DNA of 63,102 nucleotides. Source: Synergistaceae bacterium. GTDB taxonomy: Bacteria; Synergistota; Synergistia; Synergistales; Synergistaceae. The notes beneath the pieces are model-generated. The model searched no databases and was not told where the DNA came from. It saw nothing but the letters and a program-made list of their open reading frames with translations. A program made the translations under genes and the position numbers. The DNA is taken from assembly GCA_030533085.1 (NCBI GenBank), contig JAUNJZ010000011.1, positions 1-63,102 of the forward strand. Reading direction: 5' to 3'. Numbering within the stretch: the first letter of the stretch is position 1; each line of letters begins with the position of its first letter. Shown here piece by piece: positions 45,860 to 53,047 of this stretch.

Positions 45860-45998
45860 CAAACACCACGCCAGTAAGATTTTTTGTATTTATACATCAA
45901 AAATAAATAAATTACCATAGCCCCCTTTTTTAGAAAGCGGGCGCTGTCTTTTGTTCCCCGCTCCTGTTAAAATAAGCTCGTATGCGTATTGACGGGAG

Positions 45999-46571
45999 GT
46001 GTCAGCTCTGCTATCAGCTTCGGACGGATCACGATGGGAATGGAGAATCTTTTCCAACAGCCCGCTCGATCAGCTGCGGCCGCTTTTCGGCAAGCTCAGG
46101 CGCGCGAATCACAAAAAGGACCGCGATATTTATATTATTTCCAGATTCACCGGAGCAAATCTTAAAGTCAGAGGCGCTGCGATGGATATAAAAATAAAGC
46201 TTGAGGACTCCACGCTCGGAGCAGAGCGCTGGAAGCCGGTTTTTAAGACCCCCTTTCCCCCCGCGCTTTCGGCCTTCTCCGCAATTACCGGCTACATGGG
46301 CGCGCCAATGCACGTTTCGCTGGCGGACGGAGTCCTCCCGCGCGGAGCGCATATAGCGACGGTGGAAGCGGAAAAGGAGCGGGACATTTATATGGTAAAG
46401 GACGCGATTATAGAGTACGGCAGTGTCTCCTTCGGAAAGCGACGAATGTGGAGCCTTTGCGCGGAGAGCGCGGAGCTATCGCAGGTAGAATATTTCATCA
46501 GCGGCTGCCGCATAAAAAATGTAATGACCGCCAGTTATGTAACAATGCTGAAGCATTTTTTAAACTGGTAA
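45999..46571 (+). CDS. WEWR-motif protein, CYTH-like fold (copy 1)
   Basis: 190 aa. WEWR at 13-16, then RDIYIISR (42-49), NLKVRG (54-59), MDIKIKLED (62-70) and later EKERDIYMVKDAI (125-137) with a closing VMTASYVTMLKHFL. The order of charged beta strands resembles CYTH/triphosphate tunnel enzymes, but the ExExK signature is only WEWR-like. Its paralog lies at 46751-47338. The only in-frame near-standard start is GTG 45999, which overlaps the GGGAGG ribosome site; CTG 46008 would be ideally spaced. Function unknown; near ppx. Confidence 0.75.
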   Translation: MSALLSASDGSRWEWRIFSNSPLDQLRPLFGKLRRANHKKDRDIYIISRFTGANLKVRGAAMDIKIKLEDSTLGAERWKPVFKTPFPPALSAFSAITGYMGAPMHVSLADGVLPRGAHIATVEAEKERDIYMVKDAIIEYGSVSFGKRRMWSLCAESAELSQVEYFISGCRIKNVMTASYVTMLKHFLNW

Positions 46572-46600
46572 TTGACATATCGCCGCCGGAGTTATATGCT
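46572..46600 (+). promoter_or_regulatory. Consensus promoter between the two WEWR genes
   Basis: Perfect TTGACA (46572-46577), exact 17-base spacer, TATGCT (46595-46600). It starts at the stop codon of the first WEWR gene. Expected start of transcription is near 46608. Confidence 0.72.
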
Positions 46601-46607
46601 ATCAGCG

Positions 46608-46717
46608 TAAGATGGGCACAATACAGAATAGCTCTTTGCAGTAGGAGGCTAGCTCTGTATTTTTATATAAATGATGCGGGACGGCCTCTTCTGTGAAGAG
46701 AACGTCCCGCATTTTTT
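46608..46717 (+). ncRNA. Candidate small RNA or attenuator leader
   Basis: From the expected start of the consensus promoter to the terminator runs about 110 nt without a convincing gene. It folds into a first hairpin, ATACAGA/TCTGTAT (46621-46627 with 46654-46660) extended by TAGCT/GGCTA. An AGGAGG stretch sits in its loop, and the terminator hairpin follows. Either a free-standing sRNA or a regulated leader of the second WEWR-ppx operon. I do not recognise a known riboswitch class. Confidence 0.45.
46674..46717 (+). terminator. Intrinsic terminator/attenuator before the second WEWR gene
   Basis: ATGCGGGACG (46674-46683) pairs with CGTCCCGCAT (46703-46712), with an inner CTCTT/AAGAG stem, and six T follow. 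It lies 34 bases before the next ATG. Confidence 0.85.
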
Positions 46718-46750
46718 ACGCCCCGGTACGGGGGAAAGGAGTTTTTTGTT

Positions 46751-47338
46751 ATGGGAATCGTTGCTCGCTGGGAATGGAGAACTTTTGGAGAGGGGTCGTT
46801 CGGAAGCTGCGAGGATACTATACGCGCGCTTGGAATGGAGGGCAATAAAAAGACGGAAGAGCTTTATATACTTTCAAAGAAGAGCGACGAGAATATAAAG
46901 ATTCGCTTTGACGTGGTAGACGTCAAGTCGCTTCAGAATGTCAACGGCGACAGGCTCGAACAGTGGCTGCCCATACTCAAGACAGGCTTCCCTATTTCCG
47001 TCGTGACGCTGGAAGAGCTGTTCAAAATATTCAAAACCGAAGCGCCGGAGTTCAAGCGCGGCGAGTACGGTTACGAAGAATTTCTTGACGAAGTTATCCG
47101 CCCCTGCCCCGACCTCGAACTGGTGGAGGTCAAAAAGAGCCGCGACATCTACAAAATCGACGGCGCCACCGCAGAGATAGCGGAATGCTCCTTCAACGGA
47201 AAAGGCTGGCGCACGATATGCGTCGAGCACGAGGACCCGGCGCTCGTCATATCCGTCGTTAAGAAGCTCGGCCTGAGCGGCGCGCCCAACGTCAACTACA
47301 TTCAGGCCATGAAGAAATCCGTGGGGATGAGCAGATAA
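46751..47338 (+). CDS. WEWR-motif protein, CYTH-like fold (copy 2)
   Basis: 195 aa starting MGIVARWEWRTF after AAAGGAG. Same motif order as copy 1: WEWR (7-10), ELYILSKK, NIKIRFDVVDVKSL, then VEVKKSRDIYKIDGATAEIAECSF and a closing LGLSGAPNVNYIQAMKK. The last part looks like the end of CYTH domains (K-R-Y, then LGL-NV-Y). CYTH proteins bind triphosphate or polyphosphate. Its stop overlaps the ppx ATG by one base (TAATG), strong evidence of joint expression. The fold is inferred by eye and needs a profile search. Confidence 0.78.
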   Translation: MGIVARWEWRTFGEGSFGSCEDTIRALGMEGNKKTEELYILSKKSDENIKIRFDVVDVKSLQNVNGDRLEQWLPILKTGFPISVVTLEELFKIFKTEAPEFKRGEYGYEEFLDEVIRPCPDLELVEVKKSRDIYKIDGATAEIAECSFNGKGWRTICVEHEDPALVISVVKKLGLSGAPNVNYIQAMKKSVGMSR

Positions 47339-48255
47339 TGATAAAGGCTGTCATTGACGTCGGAACAAATTCCATAAAGTTCTGCCTCGCGGAGAGCGAA
47401 AGGCGCGACGGCTCCTTCACCGTTCTGAAGGACGCGAACAATATCGCGAAACTGGGCGAAGGGCTGCGGGAGAGCGGCCTTATATCCCCCGACGCGCTGG
47501 AAAGAAACGCGCTGGCAGCGGCCGGATTCGTAAAAGAGGCGCGAGAGGCCGGCGCTGACGACATCCATATCGTCGGCACAATGGCTTTGCGCACGGCGAA
47601 AAATACGGACGCCTTCAAAAGGCGCGTGAATGAGCTGACCGGTCTCGATATCCGCGTCATTCCCGGCGAGGAGGAGGCGCAGCTTTCCTACATCGCGGTC
47701 ATGTCAGGCATTCACGGCGCGGCGGAGGCCAACCTTGTATCATTCGACACGGGCGGCGGAAGCACGGAGTTCGTATTCGGCGAAGCGGGGGTGATGAAGC
47801 GCAAATTCAGCCTCAACATCGGAGGCATACGCATAACCGAGGATTATCTTTCCGAGACGCCAGTTCCGGCGGAAAGGCTGGCCGAGGCGCGCGCGTGTGT
47901 ACGCAAAGAGCTGAGCGACGGAGGCGTCACGCCAGGCGCGGAATTTCTTGTGGGGATGGGAGGAAATGTCACCAGCATCGCCTCAGTAAAGCATCGGATG
48001 AAAATATATGACCCTGATGTGATACAGGGCTCAAAGCTAACCCTTTCCGATATAAGGGGGCAGATCGCGGACTATGCGTCAAAGACGCTGGACGAACGCA
48101 GGAATATCGTCGGCCTCCAGCCGAAGCGCGCGGACGTGATACTCGCCGGCGCCTGTATCGTCGAGGCGGCGATGGAGCTTTGCGGCGTGGAGGAGCTGAC
48201 GGTCAGCGACAGGGGGCTGCGTCACGGATTGCTTTATAAGCTCTTTAAGGCGTAA
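47338..48255 (+). CDS. Ppx/GppA family phosphatase
   Basis: 305 aa, the short two-domain form. VIDVGTNSIKFCLAE (5-19) and LVSFDTGGGSTEFVFGE (about 137-153) are the phosphate-1/2 ATPase-fold motifs. PGEEEAQLSYIAVM, GMGGNVTSIASVK and RADVILAGACIVEAAM follow. Family members hydrolyse polyphosphate or pppGpp. The C-terminal HD-like domain of long Ppx is absent. Translation is coupled to the second WEWR protein. Confidence 0.92.
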   Translation: MIKAVIDVGTNSIKFCLAESERRDGSFTVLKDANNIAKLGEGLRESGLISPDALERNALAAAGFVKEAREAGADDIHIVGTMALRTAKNTDAFKRRVNELTGLDIRVIPGEEEAQLSYIAVMSGIHGAAEANLVSFDTGGGSTEFVFGEAGVMKRKFSLNIGGIRITEDYLSETPVPAERLAEARACVRKELSDGGVTPGAEFLVGMGGNVTSIASVKHRMKIYDPDVIQGSKLTLSDIRGQIADYASKTLDERRNIVGLQPKRADVILAGACIVEAAMELCGVEELTVSDRGLRHGLLYKLFKA

Positions 48256-48293: not shown

Positions 48294-49235
48294 ATGCGTA
48301 AGTTTTTAGTATTGGCTCTGGCGGCGGCGGTATTGGCTCTCTCTCTGACTCCGGCTATGGCGGCATATCCGGAAAAGCCAGTTAAAATAGTGAATTACGT
48401 CGCTCCAGGAGGGCTCATGGATGTGACGAGCCGCAAATTTATCTCCATAGCCCAAAAGTATACGGACGCCACCTTTGTGGTTGAGAACACGACAGGCGCT
48501 GGCGGACTCGTCGCTATCGGGGCCGTTCTGGAACAGCCGGCCGACGGCTACACGGTATTCGCCGCGACGACCTCTGTGGTTGACAAGGTGGTATCCGCAA
48601 AAAAGAATATCGACGAGATGGTTTGGGGTTTTGAGTGGGTAGCAATGCTGATGAAGGACCCTGAATGCGTCATCACCGCGGAGAAAGGGGAATACGATAC
48701 CTTTGAAAAGCTTGTCGCCGCGGCTAAAAAGGAGGACGGCCGGCAGATATGGGGCGGCCCTGCGACCGGCGGCAACGACCATATCTTCGCGCAGAATGTA
48801 TGGGCCGCGGCCGGTATAAAGGCGAAGTGGCTTCCCTACAAGAGCGGCCCAGAGGCAATGATGGGAACTCTCGCCGGTCAGAACGCCGCCTATGTGGGAA
48901 ATCCGGCCGACACGCAAGGACGTCAGGGCTACAAAATCGTGGCAATATCCTCTCCTAAACGTCTCCCCCAACTGCCTGACGTGCCGACATTCAAGGAGCT
49001 TGGTTACAAGGGACTGGACAATGAATTCATGTGGCGCGGCTTCGCGATAAAGAAGGGCGCGCCTGAAGAGGCGTATAAGTGGTGGGAAGAGCTGAATCAG
49101 AAGGTCGCCAAAGACCCTGAGTGGCGCTCTTTCCTCGTCCGTGACGGAATCGAGGTCAGCGACTGGGGACGTGATAAGTTCTCGAAGCAGGTGGAGATCG
49201 ATATCGCGGCGGCTCAGCGCTTCCTGAAAAAGTAA
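48294..49235 (+). CDS. Tripartite tricarboxylate transporter substrate-binding protein (TctC)
   Basis: 313-aa periplasmic protein with a signal peptide (1-23, ending PAMA^A). The Bug/TctC fold shows in YPEKPVKIVNYVAPGGLMDVTSRK, TTGAGGLVAIGAV and QLPDVPTFKELGYKGLD. Ligand unknown; family members bind citrate and other organic acids. AAGGAGG precedes the ATG. The hairpin downstream should raise its share relative to the membrane subunits. Confidence 0.93.
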   Translation: MRKFLVLALAAAVLALSLTPAMAAYPEKPVKIVNYVAPGGLMDVTSRKFISIAQKYTDATFVVENTTGAGGLVAIGAVLEQPADGYTVFAATTSVVDKVVSAKKNIDEMVWGFEWVAMLMKDPECVITAEKGEYDTFEKLVAAAKKEDGRQIWGGPATGGNDHIFAQNVWAAAGIKAKWLPYKSGPEAMMGTLAGQNAAYVGNPADTQGRQGYKIVAISSPKRLPQLPDVPTFKELGYKGLDNEFMWRGFAIKKGAPEEAYKWWEELNQKVAKDPEWRSFLVRDGIEVSDWGRDKFSKQVEIDIAAAQRFLKK

Positions 49236-49298: not shown

Positions 49299-49859
49299 AT
49301 GATCAATGAACTTGCCTTCTTTTTAGGGACTCCGGCCGGCGGGCTCATCCTCTGCACAACGGGGACGCTGTTGCTGGCTCTGGCGGCGAGGTTTTCAGCA
49401 GCCTCCGGCAAGGGGGACAGGCTGGACTCGCTTATGGCCGCCTTCTTTTTTATTGAACTTTCATCCGCCTTTATCCTGCTTTCATTCGGCTTTGACGGCG
49501 CGGAGGAGGCGGAGAGCGACCCTGCGCTGGTTCCGCTGCTGTGGGGCGTATCGCTGCTGATCTGTTCTGTAACGCAGTTTATAAGGATATGGAACAAAAA
49601 GGACTATAAACCAATAAGGTATGGACATTTTGGGCGGGTCGCGGCGGTCATCGCGGTTGTCGCCGTCACTATAGCCCTCTTCAATACACTTGGCTTTTTT
49701 CTCAGCACAGGCGCGATGATAGCGGCGCTCATGTTCCTGATGGGCGAGCGGCGAATCGTGCTGGTGTGCGCCGCGGTATCCCTATGGATATTCGTAACGT
49801 GGGCCGTATTCAATAAGCTCCTGCTTCTCGGGCTGCCGACAGGCAGTCTCTTCCAATAA
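49299..49859 (+). CDS. Tripartite tricarboxylate transporter small membrane subunit (TctB)
   Basis: 186 aa with about four hydrophobic segments (roughly 14-30, 47-66, 76-92 and 112-155 as two helices). Size, topology and position between TctC and TctA identify it as the TctB-type subunit; sequence conservation in this family is low. ATG 49299 lies after AAAGAGAG. A 12-base gap separates it from tctA. Confidence 0.87.
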   Translation: MINELAFFLGTPAGGLILCTTGTLLLALAARFSAASGKGDRLDSLMAAFFFIELSSAFILLSFGFDGAEEAESDPALVPLLWGVSLLICSVTQFIRIWNKKDYKPIRYGHFGRVAAVIAVVAVTIALFNTLGFFLSTGAMIAALMFLMGERRIVLVCAAVSLWIFVTWAVFNKLLLLGLPTGSLFQ

Positions 49860-49871
49860 GGAGGCGTTGTC

Positions 49872-51377
49872 ATGGAAATGCTGAACTCTCTCGCGGCGGG
49901 GCTGCGTAATCTGGCCGGTATAGAGCCGCTCGCCGTAATCACGGCCGGCGTGATTGTCGGGATACTCGGAGGGGCTATGCCCGGCGTCTCGCCTTCAATG
50001 GCCGTGGCCATCCTTCTTCCCTTCACCTTCGGCATGAGTCCCACTATGGGGCTGGTGATGCTATGCGCGATATATCTCGCTTCAAATTACGGCGGCTCGA
50101 TAACCGCCGTGACGATAAACACCCCCGGCACACCCTCAGCCGTCGTCACAGCTTTCGACGGATACCCGCTCGCGAAAAGCGGACGCGCGGGAGAGGCGCT
50201 GGGCGTGTCGCTCGTCGCCTCCGTGGCGGGAGGATTCGTCGGAATCGTGATACTTATATGTTTCTCCGCGCCGCTGGCGAAATTCGCGCTAAAATTCTGG
50301 CCGGCGGAATACTTCGCCCTCGCCATTCTCGGCCTCACGACAGTAGCCTCCCTTGGCGGAGGCAAATGGCTCGAAGCTCTCATCGCGGTGCTGCTAGGGC
50401 TGATGCTTAACACAATAGGGCTCGACCATGTGAGCGGCGTCTCAAGATATACCTTCGACATTATCCGACTCTACGACGGATTTTCATTTATACCGGCGCT
50501 GATCGGCCTTTTCGCGCTTAGCGAGGTCTTCGCGAATGTCGAGGAGGGAAATTTCAAGGCCTTCGACAAAGTATCCGATGACAAAAGCATATCCTCATGG
50601 CCGTCTCTTTCGACATATCTGAGCCTCAAATGGGGGATGCTGCGCGCCGGCATCCTTGGCACCATCATCGGCGTCTTCCCCGGCGCGGGCGGGACGATTG
50701 CATCTTTCATAGCCTACGACGTTGAGAAGCGTCTCAGCCGGCATCCTGAGAAATTCGGCCGCGGCAGTCTTGAGGGGGTAGTTGCAGCGGAGGCGTCAAA
50801 CAGCTCTTCCGTAGGCGGCGCGCTGGTGCCGCTGCTGACGCTGGGAATCCCCGGAAGCGCCTCGACGGCCGTCCTGATAGGCGCTCTGATGATACACGAA
50901 CTGCGCCCGGGGCCTGAGCTTTTCAGCAAGAATCCGGAAATAGTCTATACTCTCTTTTCAAGTCTCTTTGTGGCGAACTTTGTTCTGCTTGTCGTCGGCG
51001 CCCTCGGTTCCCGGATATGGCTGAAGGTTACGATGGTTCCCAAAAGCATTCTCTATCCGATGATATTCGCCTTTTCCATCGTCGGCAGCTTCGCCGTTCG
51101 CTCATCCCTCTTCGATGTAGGAGTCTGCGTCGCCTTCGGCGTGGCGGGCTGGTTGCTGAACAAATTCCATTATCCTTCGTCGCCGATAGTCCTCGGGCTG
51201 GTGCTAGGGACGCTTATCGAGATGAATTTGCAGATGACGCTGCTGATGGACGGCCCGGCAATGCTCTTCACCAGGCCGCTGAGCGCCGTCCTGCTCGCGC
51301 TGTCGGCCCTATCTCTCTGCGCACCGGCGCTTAGGGGGCTTCGCGCAAGGAGAAATAAAAAAGCGGATAAAGCCTGA
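49872..51377 (+). CDS. Tripartite tricarboxylate transporter large membrane subunit (TctA)
   Basis: 501 aa, about 11-12 membrane helices. The family signature GAMPGVSPSMAVAILLPFTFGMSPTMGLVML (about 33-62) and the repeat GVFPGAGGTIASFIAYDVEKRLS with EAsNSSSVGGALVPLLTLGIPGS are clear. Uses an ion gradient to import the TctC-delivered acid. GGAGGCG precedes ATG 49872. Complete three-gene set; no TctDE two-component regulator seen next to it. Confidence 0.94.
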   Translation: MEMLNSLAAGLRNLAGIEPLAVITAGVIVGILGGAMPGVSPSMAVAILLPFTFGMSPTMGLVMLCAIYLASNYGGSITAVTINTPGTPSAVVTAFDGYPLAKSGRAGEALGVSLVASVAGGFVGIVILICFSAPLAKFALKFWPAEYFALAILGLTTVASLGGGKWLEALIAVLLGLMLNTIGLDHVSGVSRYTFDIIRLYDGFSFIPALIGLFALSEVFANVEEGNFKAFDKVSDDKSISSWPSLSTYLSLKWGMLRAGILGTIIGVFPGAGGTIASFIAYDVEKRLSRHPEKFGRGSLEGVVAAEASNSSSVGGALVPLLTLGIPGSASTAVLIGALMIHELRPGPELFSKNPEIVYTLFSSLFVANFVLLVVGALGSRIWLKVTMVPKSILYPMIFAFSIVGSFAVRSSLFDVGVCVAFGVAGWLLNKFHYPSSPIVLGLVLGTLIEMNLQMTLLMDGPAMLFTRPLSAVLLALSALSLCAPALRGLRARRNKKADKA

Positions 51378-51424: not shown

Positions 51425-53047
51425 ATGGCCTGGCTCTATAATTTAATATACGTGGCGGGAGGGCTCGCGCTCTTCCTCTTTGGAGTTCAGGAGAGCTCCG
51501 CTTTCTTCAAAAGCAATTTCGGCGGAGAGTTCCGCGATAAAATAGGACGATTCACATCGGGGAAATACAGGTCGTTCCTCTTCGGCGTGCTGCTTTCTGC
51601 GATAACCCAGAGCAGCACGATAGCCACATCTTTCGCGGTGGGATTCATAGATGCCGGTATGCTCTCATTCGCCGGCTCCATATATGTGATGATGGGGGCG
51701 AGCCTGGGAGGCACTTTTGTATCCTTCCTGCTGAGCCTCAGGCTTTTCGACTACGCGCCGCTGCTTTTCGCCCTCGGCTTTTTTCTCTCCAAAGTCAGAG
51801 TTCGCTGTATCTGGCTCGCCGCCGGCCTGACACGCTGCCTCGCGCTGATCTTTCTAGGAATGCTCGTCATCGGCATGGGAACGGGACCGATGTTTGAAAA
51901 TGAAGAATTCCGCCGCGCTGTAACGGAATTTGCGTCAAATCCGCTGGCGACCGGGCTGGCCTCGTTCATCGGCGCTGGCGTCCTGCAAAGCAGCTCAGCG
52001 ATTATGGCGCTGGGGATCACGCTTGCCGCGTCTGGCGTACTGCCGGCCTCGTCGGCTCTGCCGCTCGCGCTGGGAGCGCATATCGGCTCGACTACGATGG
52101 TTCTGCTCGCCGGACTCGGAGGCAGGCTCAGCGCGAAGAGGCTCGGCATTGCCACCTTCTTTTACAAGCTGCTCGGCGGCCTGCTCTTCATCCCCTTTGT
52201 GCCGTGGGTCAACGGCCTGATGTCGTCAGTCGGCCTCCCCATCGCAGGCCGGCTGGTTTACGGACAGCTGATGATCGCCCTTTTCAATATGGCTGTATTC
52301 CTGCCCTTCACCGCCGCGCTGAGCACCTTTTCCATACGGCTGATAAGCGGAGAGGGAGAGCTAAGCCAGCCGAAATATCTCGACGACGGCATGATCAGCG
52401 TCCCTTTCATAGCAGTCATGCTCCTGTCTCGCGAAATGGCACGCCTCTCAAATTACATCGAGGCCTACCTGCAAATGCTGCTGGAGCCACAGCAGCGTGA
52501 CAGGAGGCTCTTTGAAAGGCTGCCGGAAGATATAGACGAGCTGAGCGAAGCCTGCCAGGAATATTGCTATAAGCTGCACATACCGGCGGACAACCCCGAG
52601 CTGAAACGTAGATTTTCGTCCATCAGCCATACCATGTCGGTGATGCGGATGATGTCGCGCTCTATATGCGGGGGGCTGAGAGAGCTCCTCAGCAGCGAGG
52701 AGGTCCGCTGCGTGCTTGAAAAAGAGCTGGGAGAAGAGAGATGGAGGCGCTGGGCCAAGCTGGCCAGAAGGATGATGCGGACAAGCCTGCGTGCCTTCGT
52801 CATAGGCGAAAAGGCGCTCGTCAGCCGCGCCGTCAGCCTTGAGGCCGAAATGAACCAGATGTCGGGACAGATACGACACGACCTGAACGAAGTCGCGTAT
52901 GACAGACAGGTCTCCCGCGCCATTAGAATGATCTCGCTCATGCAGAGTTTTTTGGGAATGTCAAAGATACTTGCCGAGGACGAGGAGACAGAGCCGCCGA
53001 AAATGACCGTGCTGAACAGCTGCGGAGAGCTTCGCGAAATGGAGTGA
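51425..53047 (+). CDS. Na/Pi cotransporter family protein with PhoU-like tail
   Basis: 540 aa. Membrane part (about 1-310) with the two inverted QSS motifs: AITQSSTIATSFAVGFIDAG (Q62) and AGVLQSSSAIMALGITLAASG (around 180-200), hallmark of NptA/YjbB phosphate transporters. Residues 330-530 form a helical PhoU-like cytosolic domain. Followed after 6 bases by phoU. GGAGGGG precedes ATG 51425. Confidence 0.93.
   Translation: MAWLYNLIYVAGGLALFLFGVQESSAFFKSNFGGEFRDKIGRFTSGKYRSFLFGVLLSAITQSSTIATSFAVGFIDAGMLSFAGSIYVMMGASLGGTFVSFLLSLRLFDYAPLLFALGFFLSKVRVRCIWLAAGLTRCLALIFLGMLVIGMGTGPMFENEEFRRAVTEFASNPLATGLASFIGAGVLQSSSAIMALGITLAASGVLPASSALPLALGAHIGSTTMVLLAGLGGRLSAKRLGIATFFYKLLGGLLFIPFVPWVNGLMSSVGLPIAGRLVYGQLMIALFNMAVFLPFTAALSTFSIRLISGEGELSQPKYLDDGMISVPFIAVMLLSREMARLSNYIEAYLQMLLEPQQRDRRLFERLPEDIDELSEACQEYCYKLHIPADNPELKRRFSSISHTMSVMRMMSRSICGGLRELLSSEEVRCVLEKELGEERWRRWAKLARRMMRTSLRAFVIGEKALVSRAVSLEAEMNQMSGQIRHDLNEVAYDRQVSRAIRMISLMQSFLGMSKILAEDEETEPPKMTVLNSCGELREME

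Follow-up and report, generated by a model that had tools for sequence, protein, structure and literature searches.

This work concerns two related genes, w1 and w2, on a 63,102-nucleotide (nt) stretch of a Synergistaceae bacterium (GCA_030533085.1, contig JAUNJZ010000011.1, positions 1 to 63,102, forward strand; hereafter the window). Their products share the motif WEWR, and they are followed by genes for a phosphatase of the Ppx/GppA family, a tripartite tricarboxylate transporter (TTT) and a sodium/phosphate (Na/Pi) cotransporter:

45999..46571, forward strand: w1, a divergent WEWR/RxExR protein of 190 amino acids (aa) with a predicted tunnel fold, an orphan paralog (open reading frame, ORF; predicted fold)
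46751..47338, forward strand: w2, a WEWR/RxExR protein of 195 aa with a predicted tunnel fold (ORF; predicted fold)
47338..48255, forward strand: ppx, a short Ppx/GppA-family exopolyphosphatase (Pfam PF02541, E=2e-55; nearest PDB sequence 2j4r)
48294..49235, forward strand: tctC, a TctC-type substrate-binding protein (Pfam PF03401, E=2e-25)
49299..49859, forward strand: tctB, TctB (Pfam PF07331, E=9e-13)
49872..51377, forward strand: tctA, a TctA permease of a subfamily limited to WEWR-bearing Synergistota (Pfam PF01970, E=2e-156)
51425..53047, forward strand: Na/Pi cotransporter (Pfam PF02690, E=4e-35) with a C-terminal PhoU-like stretch (PF01895, E=8e-5, slightly below cut-off)

The sequence-only reading of this DNA had taken w1 and w2 for paralogs with one order of motifs (WEWR, R/E-D/E-I/L-Y-I, K-V/I-R and E/S-RDIY), had likened this order to that of CYTH domains lacking the canonical ExExK, and had noted that w2 is coupled to ppx by TAATG. 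The ORFs and the motif order are as it described, the ppx ATG overlaps the w2 stop in TAATG, and the two proteins align across 185 residues at 23% identity (BLASTP E=6e-19), which makes them genuine distant paralogs and not a chance resemblance. Behind them, Pfam finds the TctC, TctB and TctA domains, the full set of a TTT, all encoded in one operon.

The AlphaFold2 model of w2 (predicted local distance difference test, pLDDT, 95.1; predicted template modelling score, pTM, 0.88) consists of eight long strands (residues 7-13, 31-42, 48-52, 55-64, 70-79, 122-136, 139-148 and 151-160), and that of w1 (pLDDT 91.3) has eight strands laid out as in w2, so that both predicted models show the eight-stranded beta-barrel tunnel of the CYTH/TTM (triphosphate tunnel) superfamily. 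When the PDB was searched by Foldseek, the top 27 matches of w2 (2.8e-7 to 4.6e-4) all belonged to this superfamily, including thiamine triphosphatase, BH2851, AtTTM3, YgiF, SaTTM and PH1819. The top 24 matches of w1 were likewise all triphosphate-tunnel proteins, followed by the Mediator subunits Med18/20, which have the same fold. The CYTH-like tunnel anticipated from motif order is thereby upheld by the models of both copies.

The family was aligned from 35 members, taken from loci of many phyla, and the member on a Citrobacter plasmid brought the set to 36 sequences. Invariant in all 36 are R6, E8, R10, F12, Y39, R52, K59, P81, K129, R131, E142 and E159, and w1 retains every one of them. 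ExExK is indeed missing and is replaced by an invariant RxExR, which, judged from its position on the first strand, would occupy the register of the CYTH ExExK. The tryptophans of WEWR are not invariant (the Citrobacter plasmid member reads RAEFR), and the second RDIY strand of w1 and w2 shrinks to K-x-R in the wider family. All 14 charged positions conserved in at least 90% of members fall within the eight strands, which make up 80 of the 195 residues of w2 and show an alternating pattern of conservation along their length (shuffle p=0.014), as expected if one strand face lines the tunnel.

Neither w1 nor w2 is named by Pfam and NCBIfam, and searches of Pfam, NCBIfam and PDB sequences with w1, w2 or the WEWR family returned no significant family. 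CYTH (PF01928) is among the Pfam families most often weakly matched by WEWR members, touching 2 of the 35 with a best E of 0.05; its cut-off was reached by none of them, and by none in 22 genomes. The best weak PDB profile match of the family is the TTM-fold protein PH1819 (E 0.11). A match to YraN (E 0.005-0.01) was rejected, lying far below the YraN cut-off. Since ExExK was tested for and is absent, we do not call WEWR a CYTH member; the models suggest a tunnel-fold protein that would be TTM-like in its working at most. No ortholog of w1 was found among 188 Synergistota genomes. An Acidobacteriota contig (L040:2-616) holds a second, divergent WEWR gene without a recognised adjoining hydrolase, an orphan paralog like w1, and in a Cloacimonadota bacterium (L056:5001-5291) the WEWR gene is internally deleted to a 96 aa ORF, the neighbouring Ppx being full length.

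One-genome-per-species data yielded 37 loci, of which 36 are informative and one, L057, is truncated where its contig stops. In 36 of 36 the WEWR gene lies near a Ppx gene, is fused to Ppx, or has a CYTH gene adjacent or close. A Ppx gene stands beside or near it in 23 loci (in L021 the contig ends within this gene), the two are fused in four (L051-L054, L053 being from Nocardioides terrigena), and a gene for a canonical CYTH protein of 154-159 aa follows in nine, with a porin gene in between in L033 and a small DUF498 gene in L042. Pfam confirms the WEWR-Ppx fusion in L051, L053 and L054 as well as on a Cupriavidus megaplasmid. A linkage limited to this one genome, which would have undermined the sequence-only reading, is thus rejected: WEWR and ppx recur together in many phyla, fusions included, and the family spreads through Synergistota, Bacillota, Acidobacteriota, Bacteroidota, Fidelibacterota (Neomarinimicrobiota), KSB1, Calditrichota, Cloacimonadota, Actinomycetota and Pseudomonadota. 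Two findings go beyond that reading: a canonical CYTH protein sometimes stands in for Ppx as the hydrolase, and the pair is part of a cassette with a transporter.

The Citrobacter freundii plasmid has the order LysR, CYTH, WEWR (annotated as 'hypothetical protein') and SLC13 permease; in strain FDAARGOS_73 the stretch (L094:8205-13721) also encodes a 486 aa protein without a Pfam match, and the cassette there lies on mobile DNA. Near the fused WEWR-Ppx of Actinomycetota stand proteins of about 260 aa with an SVELKLxVP strand (L052:4180-4959, L053:2391-3194 and L054:1837-2616), which have at most a sub-threshold Pfam CYTH match (E 0.0055) and are possibly another unnamed CYTH-like family.

The window Ppx carries PF02541 and aligns through both phosphate-binding loops with 2j4r, which places it in the Ppx/GppA family. 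Its best NCBIfam score comes from the exopolyphosphatase-only model (234 bits, below the cut-off of 307), and the GppA model matches more weakly (E=9e-33). In the Ppx tree, with an outgroup of Synergistota only, 35 WEWR-linked Ppx stand on one side of one branch versus 19 other Synergistota Ppx, which include the window genome's own two other copies; support for this split is moderate (74/96), and it takes one change, as in 0 of 500 shuffles. An operon linked to polyphosphate kinase (PPK) was rejected as an explanation, the ppk1 of the window genome (G000) being on another contig (C17, L092) with a distant ppx of its own close downstream; the WEWR-linked ppx is therefore a different one. PPK1 and PPK2 are both absent in 10 of the 13 WEWR-bearing Synergistota tested.

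The partner CYTH protein matches PF01928 at E=1e-16 and carries ExExK, with EIERK invariant, and its nearest PDB sequences are 3typ and 2fbl (NE1496), at E of about 2e-15 to 5e-15. NE1496 is NeuTTM, a triphosphatase with high specificity for inorganic triphosphate (PMC3440374). On the WEWR tree the CYTH-partner label needs about five changes, which indicates that Ppx and CYTH replaced one another repeatedly. Ppx, of the ASKHA fold, and NeuTTM-like CYTH have unrelated folds, and the known substrates common to them are inorganic short phosphate chains.

As for the transporters, TctC-TctB-TctA lies downstream of the pair in Synergistota, Clostridia, Neomarinimicrobiota, KSB1, Calditrichota and Cloacimonadota, an SLC13/DASS carrier takes its place in Acidobacteria, Bacteroidota and the Citrobacter plasmid, and this anion carrier is usually followed by a Na/Pi cotransporter, by DUF47 plus PiT, or by MgtC. 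The TctCBA and SLC13/DASS carriers of the cassette are ordinary Pfam members; unlike other TTT, the cassette TctA forms a subfamily that always accompanies WEWR-Ppx in Synergistota. Among the 188 Synergistota genomes, homologs of the window TctA at 67-78% identity are confined to the 18 other WEWR genomes and present in each of them (19 with the window's), and the next-best match anywhere has 49% identity. Two Acidobacteria (L033 and L040) have beside WEWR a gene for porin O/P (PF07396), a family that includes OprP and OprO, the channels of Pseudomonas for phosphate and pyrophosphate, and two actinobacterial loci (L053 and L055) have a SulP permease near WEWR instead of Tct/DASS. A PhnD-like periplasmic protein, whose nearest solved structures are ArrX and PtxB, stands alongside together with a histidine kinase and a sigma-54 activator in Neomarinimicrobiota and Bacteroidota, and an ArsR-type regulator adjoins WEWR in Cloacimonadota.

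In the window's own family (f1), WEWR occurs in no other genome of over 50, and the nearest relatives of w2, Ppx and TctA alike are in the Pyramidobacter family (f7) or on a nearby contig; the cassette was probably acquired horizontally. The WEWR gene on a contig labelled Spirochaetaceae (L021) has 68% identity to w2, and this contig is probably a misbinned Synergistota contig or a recent transfer. A search of the E. coli genome gave no match at the DNA level.

The space between w1 and w2 holds three further features:

46572..46600, forward strand: promoter-like TTGACA-17-TATGCT (10/12 consensus match), the putative own promoter of the w2-ppx-tct operon
46624..46630, forward strand: conserved leader motif CAGAATA, recurring at similar distance 5′ of WEWR genes in Synergistota and Clostridia
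46674..46717, forward strand: intrinsic-terminator-like hairpin with a T-run, located in the 5′ leader 34 nt upstream of the w2 start (sequence and fold z-score)

Because the promoter-like site and the hairpin with its T-run stand between w1 and w2, w1 is probably transcribed separately from w2-ppx. The promoter scan of the region is weak alone, with three sites found against 1.8 expected, and the consensus scan did not list the hairpin at 46674-46717; the fold z-score of 46600-46752 is -4.5. CAGAATA lies 120-230 nt before the WEWR start in most Synergistota and in all Clostridia examined, with a terminator-like hairpin usually after it, and it occurs in 11 of 15 chosen leaders versus 0.45 expected in shuffles, a comparison from which the relatedness of the leaders is not removed. 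Beyond the window (46572-46750), the leaders with the motif are those of L023, L024, L026-L032, L034, L035, L038, L039, L081, L082, L084, L088 and L089, and several Synergistota leaders extend it to TTGAAAAAGCAGAATA. The leader has no match in Rfam, so that a known Rfam element is not supported, and one fixed RNA helix could not be established for it. A scan of the phylum with the longer form found it 5′ of WEWR genes in several genomes; a regulon-wide element was rejected, as the hits elsewhere, chiefly within coding sequence, are apparently due to chance. Attenuation by the leader that is specific to this operon is likely. Upstream, the Shine-Dalgarno sequence of w1 (GGGAGG-like, region 45990-46010) overlaps the annotated GTG start, which leaves the exact start uncertain; w1 may instead begin at a CTG (46008), which is ideally spaced from GGGAGG.

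Based on the predicted fold, the conservation, the obligate linkage, the partner exchange, the fusions and the co-occurrence of TctA, we infer a phosphate-chain ligand, a feeding mechanism and a transport substrate, and propose, at a probability of roughly 0.45, that w2 and w1 belong to a tunnel-fold family which binds phosphate chains beside a dedicated hydrolase, and that the complete cassette imports short polyphosphate or tripolyphosphate. The tunnel, predicted to be basic (conserved Arg/Lys, few Glu), would bind a linear inorganic phosphate chain, and WEWR would present this chain to, or gate, a dedicated phosphoanhydride hydrolase, the short Ppx here and the NeuTTM-like CYTH triphosphatase elsewhere. 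In the complete cassette, TctCBA or the SLC13/DASS carrier would take up short-chain polyphosphate or tripolyphosphate, from which the WEWR-hydrolase pair would release inorganic phosphate (Pi), and the Na/Pi or PiT-type protein would handle the released Pi. That WEWR stays while its hydrolase swaps is most simply explained by a subunit handling the substrate common to both hydrolases; a tunnel rich in basic and poor in acidic residues is better suited to binding a linear polyanion than to hydrolysing it, hence the proposed chain binding with feeding or gating; and since 10 of the 13 tested genomes lack both kinases, these bacteria may obtain the chain from their surroundings, in keeping with the transporter. 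PHO91-type symporters are related to the DASS/SLC13 group. Vacuolar symporters of the PHO91 type gave currents with pyrophosphate (PPi) and polyP3 (PMC6449605). A more elaborate version, in which porin O/P, carrier, non-catalytic RxExR feeder, interchangeable Ppx/CYTH, Pi carrier and control by an oxyanion sensor or the leader make up one horizontally spread system for import and hydrolysis, is tentative and on the doubtful side.

Several points weigh against this proposal. TTT systems are known for carboxylates, and we know of none that carries polyphosphate. Fused WEWR-Ppx occurs without a Tct/DASS transporter in Actinobacteria, Thiodictyon and Cupriavidus, so that uptake cannot be the universal role. 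Template modelling (TM) scores to known TTMs are only about 0.5, so the relation is a distant one, and the WEWR profile compared with that of the partner CYTH family from the same loci gave no detectable similarity, so homology to TTMs is claimed from predicted structure only; the lining of the tunnel by conserved Arg/Lys, likewise, is read from the alternation of conservation and not from coordinates. In addition, tripolyphosphate (PPPi) is poorly used by E. coli Ppx (PMC3440374).

The fusions without a transporter would also suit an intracellular sensor, in which WEWR-Ppx or WEWR-CYTH would detect polyphosphate or (p)ppGpp-type ligands through the tunnel and adjust the adjoining anion and phosphate transporters to the phosphate status of the cell, the carrier taking an ordinary organic acid. 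Ppx/GppA enzymes act on pppGpp as well, the GppA model does match here, and phosphate transporters and PhoU-like genes recur as neighbours; however, the swap between Ppx and a NeuTTM-like enzyme fits hydrolysis of inorganic phosphate chains better than of pppGpp, and the strict co-occurrence of TctA suggests a common substrate pathway, and we regard such a sensor as unlikely. It is quite unlikely, too, that WEWR is itself catalytic, be it as a triphosphatase whose metal site is altered or as a VTC4-like polyphosphate polymerase opposed by Ppx. Just one Glu of the ExExK triplet is left, the top 50 PDB matches of w2 include no VTC entry (a Foldseek ranking and not a direct comparison with VTC4), there is no kinase-like partner, and a synthase next to an obligate hydrolase would be an odd pairing, although the invariant E8, E142 and E159 and the basic tunnel remain as candidates and most WEWR-bearing Synergistota, being without PPK1 or PPK2, could need another synthase.

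Arsenate or another oxyanion, instead of polyphosphate, could be what the cassette handles, given the ArrX-like XSR sensors, the periplasmic protein closest to ArrX and the ArsR-type helix-turn-helix protein adjoining WEWR in Cloacimonadota. But ArrX binds phosphate as well, more weakly than arsenate (PMC5908839), the ArsR-type sequence of L049 has no cysteines, the annotated neighbours include no recognised ars, arr or aio gene, and a polyphosphatase or triphosphatase has no obvious role with arsenic; this substrate is improbable. Least credible is a fortuitous fold match, to a generic eight-strand barrel whose linkage stems from an unrelated housekeeping role: the TM-scores near 0.5 and the lack of detection at the sequence level would agree with it, but two separately modelled paralogs rank triphosphate-tunnel proteins first, 27 and 24 in a row, the weak profile matches include CYTH in Pfam and PH1819 in the PDB, and the partners are phosphoanhydride hydrolases.

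Among known systems, the CYTH/TTM superfamily (NeuTTM, CthTTM, ThTPase, YgiF, AtTTM3 and SaTTM) resembles WEWR in its eight-stranded fold, its strand-borne conserved Arg/Lys/Glu, the first conserved strand near the N-terminus and the association with polyphosphate enzymes, whereas WEWR has RxExR for ExExK, is unseen by Pfam CYTH, has no detectable profile similarity and has an obligate second hydrolase. The TTM domains of plant TTM1/TTM2 also have the tunnel fold without the hallmark ExExK (PMC8233210), but are eukaryotic, fused to a kinase-like domain and without Ppx. CHAD domains (PMC6537752) are, similarly, polyphosphate-binding partner modules associated with CYTH enzymes, but they are alpha-helical and of unrelated fold. 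The CYTH-exopolyphosphatase fusions cited in PMC8233210 join a tunnel-fold domain to a Ppx domain as well; as far as that citation goes they are described as canonical CYTH, whereas the WEWR domain lacks ExExK and its Ppx belongs to a short, WEWR-associated group. The expectation that such a pairing would be new therefore holds in part. Tunnel-fold domains, polyphosphate-linked CYTH proteins and, from the mention in PMC8233210, CYTH-exopolyphosphatase fusions are already known, while the RxExR family, its obligate exchangeable hydrolase partner and the transporter cassette appear undescribed in the sources searched, among which no paper linking CYTH, tricarboxylate transporters and polyphosphate was found.

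In conclusion, the WEWR family is widespread, yet nameless in Pfam and NCBIfam; it extends the tunnel fold past ExExK and offers a concrete partner test for the cooperation of tunnel and polyphosphatase. Microbial polyphosphate metabolism is generally taken as intracellular cycling (PMC13318637). If it is true that the cassette imports short polyphosphate, it would represent a bacterial transport route for inorganic phosphate chains.

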